From the NCBI GenBank assembly GCA_947488625.1, contig CANKZR010000002.1, positions 62,001-126,000 on the forward strand: a stretch of DNA of 64,000 nt. Reading direction: 5' to 3'. The DNA is from an uncultured Sphingomonadaceae bacterium. Its GTDB lineage: Bacteria; Pseudomonadota; Alphaproteobacteria; Sphingomonadales; Sphingomonadaceae. The position numbers and the translations under genes are program-made. This document shows, one piece after another, positions 2,106 through 62,712 of this stretch (position 1 is its first letter; each line of letters starts with the position of its first letter). The notes below the pieces were generated by a model. It ran no database searches and was not told where the DNA came from. It saw only the letters and a program-made list of their open reading frames with translations.

Positions 2106-3041
2106 TCAGTCGAACAGGCTGGAGACGGAACTCTCATCGGCGATGCGGCGGATTGCCTCGCCCAGCAGCGGGGCGATGGGCAGGATGCGGATGCGGTCCG
2201 AATCCTTGGCCGCGTCGGTAGGCTGAATGGAATCGGAAATCACCAGTTCCTTCAGGGCCGACTTGTCGATCCGCGCGACCGCGCCGCCCGACAGCACGCC
2301 GTGGGTAATGTAGGCCGCCACGCTTTTCGCGCCCTGATCCAGCAGCGCCTGTGCAGCGTTGCACAGCGTTCCGCCCGAATCGACGATATCGTCGATCAGC
2401 ACGCATGATCGGCCCTGCACGTCGCCGATGATGTTCATCACCTCGCTCTCGCCAGGGCGATCGCGGCGCTTGTCGACGATGGCCAGCGGGGCGTTGTCGA
2501 GCCGCTTTGCCAGCGCACGGGCGCGCACCACGCCGCCGACATCGGGGGAGACGACCATCAGTTCCTGATCGCCATAGTGCGCCTGGATATCGGCAGCCAT
2601 GGTGGGTGCAGCGTAAAGGTTGTCGGTCGGAATATCGAAGAAGCCCTGGATCTGCCCTGCGTGCAGGTCCACCGCAAGCACGCGGTCGGCCCCTGCCTCG
2701 GTAATCAGGTTCGCGACCAGCTTTGCGGAGATCGGCGTGCGCGGCCCGGGTTTGCGATCCTGCCGGGCATAGCCGAAATAGGGGACCACGGCGGTGATCC
2801 GCTTGGCAGAGGCACGGCGCAGCGCGTCGATCCCGATAAGCAGTTCCATCAGGTTGTCATTCGCCGGGAAACTGGTGGACTGGACGATGAACACATCCTC
2901 CCCGCGCACGTTCTCGTGGATCTCGATGAACACCTCTTCATCGGCAAAGCGGCGGACGCTGGCGTCGGTGAGGGGAACTTCGAGATAGCCGGCAATGGCG
3001 CGGGCGAGCGGCAGGTTGGAATTGCCGGACATGATTTTCAT
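2106..3041 (-). CDS. prs: Ribose-phosphate pyrophosphokinase
   Basis: 311 aa; [61 protein letters not shown] motifs. Confidence 0.97.
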
Positions 3042-3144: not shown

Positions 3145-3260
3145 GTTTGTCTTGCGAAGCTGCCTCCGCGGCTTCGTCCTCGCTAGGTGCGCGGCAAGCT
3201 GCGCCCGCTGCGGGCGGGCGTTTGCCCTTGCGGTCGGCTGAACGCCGACCGGGTTGGCGT
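3145..3260 (-). repeat. Dispersed intergenic hairpin repeat, copy E
   Basis: Reverse complement reads CAGCCGACCGCAAGG...CGCCCGCAGCGGGCGCAGCTTGCCGCGCACCTAGCGAGGACGAAGCCGCGGAGGCAGCTTCGCAAGACAAACG; same order of hairpins as copies at 50.7 and 60.1 kb. Confidence 0.85.
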
Positions 3261-50526: not shown

Positions 50527-50564
50527 CTGGTGGTTTATAACGGCAACACACTCTTTTGGAAGCC

Positions 50565-50795
50565 CTCAGGCGCCGGGCGCGGACCGTCCGGCCCGCTTGG
50601 CTTTTCTCGCATTGGCTCGGGCGCGCATTCGCGCTTGCGGTCGCTTGTGCGACCGTGTCCCGCGCGATCTGCTGAATAGAGCGCACGCTCGGTCGGCGAT
50701 TAGCCGGCCGCAAGGCCGAACGGCCGCCCGCAGTGGGCGCAGCTTGCTGCGCGTCTAGCGAGGACGAAGCCGCGGAGGCGGCTTCGCAAAACAAG
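50565..50795 (+). repeat. Dispersed intergenic hairpin repeat, copy A (two modules)
   Basis: CCGCAAGGCCGAACGGCCGCCCGCAGTGGGCGCAGCTTGCTGCGCGTCTAGCGAGGACGAAGCCGCGGAGGCGGCTTCGCAAAACAAG; upstream module shared with copy B. Confidence 0.9.
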
Positions 50796-50809: not shown

Positions 50810-50884
50810 TGGTGCCACGAGAGAGAATTGAACTCTCGGCCTCACCCTTACCAAGGGTGCGCTCTACCACTGAGCTACCGCGGC
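50810..50884 (-). tRNA. tRNA-Thr (anticodon GGT), CCA encoded
   Basis: Minus strand GCCGCGGTAGCTCAGTGGTAGAGCGCACCCTTGGTAAGGGTGAGGCCGAGAGTTCAATTCTCTCTCGTGGCACCA. Confidence 0.95.
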
Positions 50885-59557: not shown

Positions 59558-59980
59558 ATGCGTAATCACACCCGCGCCCCCTTTGCCCGTATCATGATTG
59601 CCGGTGCGGCCGTGCTTGGCCTATCTGCCTGTGGCGGCATCAGCATCGATCGTGAACGACCCGACGAATTTGCCGTGCAGCGCCAGGCGCCGCTGGTGAT
59701 TCCGCCCGATTTCCATCTCGTCCCGCCTGCACCCGGCGCGCCGCGCCCTGCAGAAGGCACCGCCTCGCAGCAGGCACTGGAAGCCTTGTTCGGCGGCCCT
59801 GCCCAGCGCAGTGGCATCGAAACCTCTGCACTCGATCAGGCAGGCGACGCCGCTCCCGGTATTCGCTCCGCCATCGGCGACGTCGGCACCTATACGGTGG
59901 ACAAGGGCACCGCCACGCAGGCCATCATCGCCGCCCCCGAAGGCGACGGACAGGCAGCACGGGCTGTAATACCTTCCTGA
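59558..59980 (+). CDS. DUF3035-like lipoprotein
   Basis: AAVLGLSACGGISIDRERPDEFAVQRQAPLVIPPDFHLVPPAPGAPRP. Confidence 0.85.
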   Translation: MRNHTRAPFARIMIAGAAVLGLSACGGISIDRERPDEFAVQRQAPLVIPPDFHLVPPAPGAPRPAEGTASQQALEALFGGPAQRSGIETSALDQAGDAAPGIRSAIGDVGTYTVDKGTATQAIIAAPEGDGQAARAVIPS

Positions 59981-59984
59981 TTTG

Positions 59985-60218
59985 GCCTCAAGCGCCGGCG
60001 TTCGCGTCCGCTCGCTTGGCTTTCCTCGCATAAGCTCGGGCGCGCGTTCGCGCTTGCGGTCGCTTTCGCGTCCGGGGCCATTCCTGGGCGATAGGATGAG
60101 AGCGGGACACGGACCGCGCCTAGCGGACCGCAAGGCCGAACGGCCGCCCGCAGCGGGCGCAGCTTGCTGTGCGTCTAGCGAGGACGATTGCGCGGAGGCG
60201 CAATCGAAAAACAAACAA
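59985..60218 (+). repeat. Dispersed intergenic hairpin repeat, copy B (two modules)
   Basis: CCGCAAGGCCGAACGGCCGCCCGCAGCGGGCGCAGCTTGCTGTGCGTCTAGCGAGGACGATTGCGCGGAGGCGCAATCGAAAAACAAACAAG. Confidence 0.9.
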
Positions 60219-62402: not shown

Positions 62403-62424
62403 TCGGATCTTCGACTAGACAAGA

Positions 62425-62456
62425 AAGGCCGCTCCGTCTGGGGCGGTCTTTTTGTT
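62425..62456 (+). terminator. Rho-independent terminator after OmpA gene
   Basis: GGCCGCTCCGTCTGGGGCGGTC followed by TTTTTG. Confidence 0.8.
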
Positions 62457-62511
62457 TGGCCTCGAACGCCCGAACCACTCCCTTCCTTGCAGGCAATTTC
62501 GGAGAACGGTC

Positions 62512-62612
62512 GGCGCTGAGCCGGCCGCAGGTGCCCCGCAGCGAAGCGGAGGGAGAAGCGGAGGGAACAGAACCTAGGACGAAGCCTCGGAGGCGGCTTG
62601 GAAAAACAAACC
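62512..62612 (+). repeat. Dispersed intergenic hairpin repeat, copy D (degenerate)
   Basis: CTGAGCCGGCCGCAGG...CCTAGGACGAAGCCTCGGAGGCGGCTTGGAAAAACAAACCA. Confidence 0.6.
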
Positions 62613-62624
62613 ACTTCACGGTCT

Positions 62625-62712
62625 GCGCCTAGCCGACCGCAAGGCCGAACGGTCGCCAGCAGCGGGCGCGTCTAGCGAGGACGATCGCGCGGAGGCGCAA
62701 ACGAGAAGCGAA
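62625..62712 (+). repeat. Dispersed intergenic hairpin repeat, copy C (one hairpin missing)
   Basis: GCCTAGCCGACCGCAAGGCCGAACGGTCGCCAGCAGCGGGCGCGTCTAGCGAGGACGATCGCGCGGAGGCGCAAACG. Confidence 0.75.

Follow-up and report, generated by a model that had tools for sequence, protein, structure and literature searches.

Composite palindromic repeats with long hairpin arms in the intergenic gaps of Sphingomonadaceae, and what the covariation of their stems may mean

The DNA analysed here (the window: 64,000 nucleotides, C2:62001-126000 of a source genome of 3.21 Mb in 14 contigs) carries copies of a dispersed family of non-coding chromosomal repeats, numbering tens of copies in a genome and very probably of the REP/BIME-like kind, that are built of two palindromic arms of unusual length. 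The constraint on these repeats is on pairing, is strand-symmetric and is decoupled from the ancestry of the arm. The matching changes on the two sides of their stems look like a property of the DNA, and are no proof of a structured RNA.

Results

Copies in the window

The initial annotation had described five stretches of one hairpin series in the window, and all five are where it placed them, with every letter correct in the terminal stems that it read in copies A, B and E. An independent, blind repeat scan also finds the copies, pairing A with B over 120 nt at 83% identity and A with E, inverted, over 105 nt at 89%. The five are nevertheless not equal. Copies A and B have both arms in full (L plus R1), E is a lone R1 arm, and C and D are a tandem of R2 arm and R1 arm behind a decayed remnant of an L arm at about 62452-62476. 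The right-hand half that had been taken for the repeat is real, yet it is one arm of a larger two-armed element, and what had been set aside as a spacer, GTCTAGCGAGGAC, contains the most conserved part. The reported surroundings hold: tRNA-Thr lies at 50810-50884 by copy A and prs at 2106-3041 by copy E, and convergent genes surround copy B and copies C/D. Gene calls come from our own codon-usage model, which places 60 genes on 89% of the window. The features are as follows.

3145-3254, minus strand: copy E, single R1 arm upstream of prs (sequence; covariance and nhmmer models)
3155-3176, minus strand: terminal hairpin of copy E, CGAAGCCGC-GGAG-GCAGCTTCG, with one unpaired position (sequence)
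50548-50795, plus strand: copy A, two-armed (L then R1), between a bPH_2 gene (minus) and tRNA-Thr (minus)
50553-50677, minus strand, which is its outward reading: left arm of copy A, class L, with CCTCAGGCGCC and a GTCC-loop hairpin of its own at the end (89 bits with the nhmmer L model)
50688-50795, plus strand: right arm of copy A, class R1, in the order H1, H2, H3, H4, tag GCGAGGA, terminal hairpin, tail CAAAACAAG (97 bits with the nhmmer R model, 129.7 bits with the covariance model)
50758-50764, plus strand: invariant tag GCGAGGA of copy A (column identity about 99% in 107 arms)
50765-50786, plus strand: terminal hairpin of copy A, CGAAGCCGC-GGAG-GCGGCTTCG, 9-bp stem and GGAG loop (sequence; covariation)
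59979-60215, plus strand: copy B, two-armed (L plus R1), filling the gap between two convergent genes, a DUF3035 gene and a CorC/HlyC gene
60185-60206, plus strand: terminal hairpin of copy B, CGATTGCGC-GGAG-GCGCAATCG (sequence)
62423-62453, plus strand: intrinsic terminator of an OmpA-family gene, kept here and missing in two relatives with an element in the same gap
62452-62476, no strand assigned: decayed left L-arm end TTTGTTTGGCCTCGAACGCCC, directly after that terminator (sequence)
62520-62611, plus strand: copy C, R2-class arm (nhmmer R2 model, 41 bits)
62620-62712, plus strand: copy D, R1-class arm that follows copy C in tandem (56 bits with the nhmmer R1 model, 61 bits with the R model)

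Anatomy of the element

A complete element is a composite of two inverted arms of about 110 nt each and measures about 230-300 bp in all. Read outward, each arm is a string of hairpins followed by the tag GCGAGGA, a hairpin with a GGA(G/T) loop and an AAACAAA-type tail. The inner part runs H1 (8 bp), CCGCAAG, H2 (4 bp, GAAC-type loop), the GCCCGC hairpin H3 and a variable H4 region; the outer part runs GCGAGGA, terminal hairpin (9 bp) and the tail, which is A-rich and most commonly AAAAACAAA, or close to it. The terminal loop is GGAG or GGAT in 174 of 188 hairpins.

Three related arm classes (L, R1 and R2) pair up with their tails outward, an orientation found at 81 of 84 arm adjacencies, the other three being same-direction tandems. 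Two-armed elements include, besides A and B, many copies elsewhere, and their recognised arm edges lie 1-64 nt apart. The R1 class has CTAGCGAGGA and the R2 class, after a longer hairpin, GCACCGAGGA, while an L arm ends in a different hairpin (GTCC/GGAC loop) followed by GGCGCTTGAGG and an A-rich end. The inner half is common to all classes, with alignment scores of 51 for L-R2 (best shuffle 34) and 108 for R1-R2 (best shuffle 33). Folded as single-stranded DNA, copy B pairs TCCTCGC of its left arm with GCGAGGA of its right arm and leaves the terminal hairpin outside. Folding z-scores are -1.9 for copy A, -3.3 for B and -3.8 for E. We hold this anatomy to be all but certain.

Two unusual forms were seen in the source genome. 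At G000:C4:67940-67990 (L026) a minimal 50-bp form consists of a single hairpin flanked by TTGTTTGTTT and, on the opposite side, by AAACAGACAA, as though the element's two ends had merged into one hairpin. At G000:C2:485700-485945 (L010) the end of one element sits inside the left-arm hairpin of another, in what looks like a nested or recombined pair.

Covariation and the wobble test

With copy A as query, blastn returned 26 matches in its own genome, down to E 2e-4. The covariance model (R1) was built from 14 of that genome's right-hand units and, in a search of the genome that the initial annotation had proposed as a check, found 28 arm matches. The claim that the terminal stem keeps its pairing while its sequence is free is borne out by these 14 copies, with 41 double-sided cells (0 of 500 shuffles); in their alignment, made by MAFFT alone, the five helices pair in 92% of cells and all slid controls collapse. 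A second alignment (A2) of 107 distinct arms from this and related genomes, itself fitted to the structure model, gives 95% pairing with both sides changed at 22 of 30 pairs (467 cells; 0 of 500 shuffles), and slid controls likewise collapse. The stems that covary beyond the terminal one are H1, H2 and H4.

Perfect terminal stems are found in 123 of the 188 hairpins, and there are 83 different stem sequences. Identity between arms is 55% in the stem interior, 85% on average in the loop and 99% in the tag. Furthermore, how alike two stems are says nothing about how alike their arms are elsewhere (Mantel r 0.025, p 0.31): the sequence of the terminal stem is independent of the arm that carries it.

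For a helix that functions as RNA on one strand, G.U is expected to outnumber A.C there among the one-sided changes. Among the one-sided departures from pairing in the 188 terminal hairpins, 26 are G.T and 29 are A.C on the outward strand, the test resting on just these 55 departures; in co-directional gaps, counted in the mRNA sense, there are 17 G.T and 13 A.C. Since A.C and G.T occur about equally often and the stem varies independently of its arm, the constraint on pairing is strand-symmetric. With departures this even, the step that the initial annotation had taken from covariation to a structured RNA is unsupported. A search of Rfam gave no family match, neither at the gathering threshold nor at E <= 1.

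Placement behind genes

The elements are dispersed extragenic palindromes, with 170 of 171 unique elements outside genes: 66 in convergent gaps, 96 in co-directional gaps, 8 in divergent gaps and 1 inside a gene. The gap bases of the window, for comparison, divide 18/40/42% between convergent, co-directional and divergent gaps (chi-square p about 1e-24 on gap bases and about 1e-19 on gap counts). Divergent gaps are thus avoided (8 of 170), and elements lie a median of 3 nt from the stop codon. In convergent gaps, canonical terminators accompany 14% of element-bearing and 17% of element-free gene ends.

Distribution among genomes

All 37 genomes of the genus first searched, sampled at one genome per species, carry the family, with 1 to 49 matches each. 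In a sample taken across the bacterial family, 73 of 251 genomes carry it, spread over 33 of the 96 genera. No carrier was found among the genomes searched from other families of the order and the rest of the class, and plasmid and phage records gave no match. Within this sampling, the repeat is restricted to one bacterial family. Among named genomes, those picked up by a pattern scan are mainly Aurantiacibacter, Qipengyuania, Erythrobacter and Porphyrobacter. Perfect pattern matches also occur on short contigs of Nostoc sp. CHAB 5836 and 5824 (L135, L160) and of a gammaproteobacterial MAG (L123), which are probably contaminating Erythrobacter-type DNA in those assemblies.

Within chromosomes, the elements are commoner in the half around dnaA (50 of 67 in the closed genomes G002, G010, G018 and G036; p about 7e-5, ignoring relatedness). 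In G010 an element stands directly behind the 3' end of dnaA (C1:788920-789027 and 789101-789304). The contig C2 of the source genome is enriched: it makes up 17% of the bases and has 12 of the 23 loci.

Shared sites and changing arms

Orthologous gaps were searched for three loci of the window. The gap between tRNA-Thr and the bPH_2 gene holds an element in 21 of 28 genomes, in ten arm arrangements. The convergent gap of copy B is occupied in 9 of 9 genomes, in five arrangements (L-R1, L-R2, R2-R1, R1-R2 and R1-L). In 5 of 9 genomes the convergent gap of copies C/D has no arm, and all five have an intrinsic terminator there. In G001 and G003 an element spans the gap from stop codon to stop codon and such a terminator is missing; G011 combines an L arm with the terminator, and the source genome has terminator, remnant, R2 and R1. 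These differing arrangements at orthologous gaps indicate that the genomes share old sites whose occupants are replaced over time. Whether this reflects exchange of arms at fixed sites, as opposed to repeated fresh insertion, we would put at even chances.

Two unlinked loci of the source genome, C1:130272 and C/D, have the same tandem junction, AAACAAACCACTT(C/T)ACGG, which argues for the copying of a multi-arm unit. In the tRNA-Thr gap of G010 (L188), a run of short tandem units (GGGAATA/GGCAATA/GGCAGTA) lies beside the element.

Mobility

The RAYT transposase domain Y1_Tnp (PF01797), sought in 37 genomes, has no match in the source genome and is present in 2 of the 23 genomes of the genus searched for it, and a RAYT/REPIN origin was dropped on its absence from the source genome. 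No consistent target duplication was seen by eye at the junctions of 22 copies in the source genome, among which there was no recent empty-site pair. An autonomous transposon with these ends was also set aside, on the evidence of two arm pairs: in a relative, outward-facing arms about 2 kb apart enclose host genes and no transposase. From their translations we take these genes to be RlmH-like and EnvC-like. A second pair of arms, about 3 kb apart, likewise flanks host genes.

Discussion

The described kind that comes closest to this family is the REP/BIME class. Among REPs, a survey distinguishes GTAG and CGTC superfamilies and presents the latter as mostly alphaproteobacterial, without a transposase, often forming inverted heterodimers and lying no more than 20 bp from the 3' ends of genes (Di Nocera et al. 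2013, PMC3733652). By the same description, CGTC REPs, including those of sphingomonads, resemble the present family in their stems of 8-9 bp, loops of 4-5 nt and inverted dimers, in lying near gene 3' ends in convergent and co-directional gaps, and in having no dedicated transposase (PMC3733652). They differ in that their units are 20-40 bp with CGTC at one end of the stem, whereas the arms described here are multi-hairpin strings of about 110 nt; moreover, their stems start with two A-T pairs and they carry a CCA tail, in contrast to the C-G/G-C first pairs and AAACAAA tail seen here (PMC3733652). The tag of the present family, GCGAGGA, lies 5' of the stem and is neither CGTC nor GTAG. There is a small chance that the repeats listed in the survey include an Erythrobacter repeat of this type.

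GTAG REPs and REPINs, which are associated with RAYT (TnpAREP), share with our elements the two inverted palindromic units that form a larger hairpin, and are likewise dispersed, intergenic and vertically persistent. The present family, however, lacks the GTAG tag, has much longer arms, and has no Y1_Tnp in its own genome or in most of the genus. The BIMEs of E. coli and the enterobacterial ERIC/RU sequences are mosaics of palindromic modules in intergenic gaps that are largely transcribed. They are alike in this mosaic construction, but their modules and host range differ, a comparison made from general knowledge and not by sequence. MITEs and Correia-type elements are similarly short, non-coding and numerous, with inverted ends; for the present family, though, no target duplication and no parental transposon were found. 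The literature on palindromes, MITEs and REPs of Erythrobacter and Sphingomonas yielded general REP surveys only and no description of this element. As tag, stem start, tail and unit size all differ and RAYT was not found, we do not class the family as REP, REPIN, MITE or RNA family proper.

We favour, with some confidence, an account in which REP/BIME-like palindromes under constraint at the DNA level spread, exchange arms and persist in the gaps behind genes. In this model, a protein that handles hairpin or cruciform DNA would read the shape of the palindrome together with loop, tag and tail; alternatively, template switching could keep correcting one side of the stem from the other. Copies would spread and exchange arms through recombination or through a trans-acting enzyme other than a Y1 (RAYT-type) transposase of their own genome, and would persist because a cluster of hairpins that blocks readthrough and 3' decay of flanking transcripts is tolerated, or is useful, in the space that follows a stop codon. 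That the constraint acts on DNA is, on present evidence, probable. Strand-symmetric pairing fits a DNA hairpin read through its loop, tag and tail, correction by template switching, or use as RNA on both strands; this last weakens the DNA-level reading, since an RNA function on both strands would give the same symmetry and many copies lie between convergent genes. Spread, in turn, is deduced from dispersal and from presence and absence among genomes, as neither an enzyme that mobilises the copies nor an insertion flanked by a target duplication came to light.

It is conceivable, if unlikely, that the pairing is pure mutational bookkeeping, restored by template switching in quasi-palindromes without selection or function. 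Template switching in DNA replication can yield compensatory changes in perfect palindromes (PMC8794818), and this documented mechanism would account for the many arms with perfect stems, for the many different stem sequences and for the independence of stem and arm. It leaves unexplained, however, the strong conservation of GGA(G/T) loop, closing pair, tag and tail, and inverted loops (CTCC) are absent among the loops listed.

A function-based proposal, that the element is a domesticated bidirectional transcription boundary kept for ending transcription from both flanking genes, draws on the placement at 3' ends, the avoidance of divergent gaps, and the C/D gap, where an intrinsic terminator stands alone in five relatives and an element stands without such a terminator in G001 and G003. 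Against this, no U tract follows the terminal hairpins when they are read on the inward strand, G011 and the source genome keep both terminator and element, and the scan for canonical terminators did not separate gene ends with an element from those without. We consider this proposal unlikely; that the elements confer some benefit at the 3' ends of genes is a better prospect, though we lean slightly against it.

A non-autonomous transposon, driven by a RAYT/Y1 transposase as in REPINs or by a DDE enzyme as in MITEs, could explain dispersed copies with inverted symmetry and outward tails, terminal hairpins whose loop is fixed and whose stem is free, sites such as C/D that are empty in some relatives, and the tandem junction common to two unlinked loci. 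We nevertheless judge it rather unlikely: Y1_Tnp was not found in the source genome nor in 21 of the 23 genus genomes searched, no target duplication was recognisable by eye at the ends of its copies, outward arms about 2 kb apart enclose ordinary genes in a relative, plasmids and phages gave no match, and sites common across the genus speak for old insertions.

The view of the initial annotation, in which the repeat would act as a small RNA or 3' UTR module with its helices kept by selection, has in its favour strong covariation in several helices and copies that stand directly behind stop codons and hence would be transcribed. The preference for wobble pairs is absent on both strands, though, the same gap holds elements in both orientations and arm orders, lone and rearranged arms persist, and Rfam offers no match even at E 1, so that a structured RNA appears quite improbable. 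The same annotation had noted an open frame on the opposite strand of copies A, B and E and preferred a non-coding reading, with which we agree: match lengths of 99-130 nt fall on all residues modulo 3, arms occur in both orientations, chance open frames are common at high GC and the flanking genes are complete without the repeat, and a fragment of conserved protein-coding sequence can be dismissed.

Within the favoured DNA-level account, a more speculative version, to which we give little weight, would make the gaps behind stop codons fixed docking sites at which a host recombination activity, reading hairpin DNA through loop, tag and tail and not through the stem sequence, would time and again swap and flip interchangeable cassettes of arms.

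These repeats make up a class of long composite palindromic elements that is family-wide and has apparently not been described before. They also show cleanly that covariation of the textbook type need not imply RNA. The count of wobble symmetry used here is a cheap test for other claims of covariation on repeats. Looking forward, the occurrence of the same gaps with different arm pairs in related species means that arm exchange, re-insertion and template switching are separable through the comparison of close strains.
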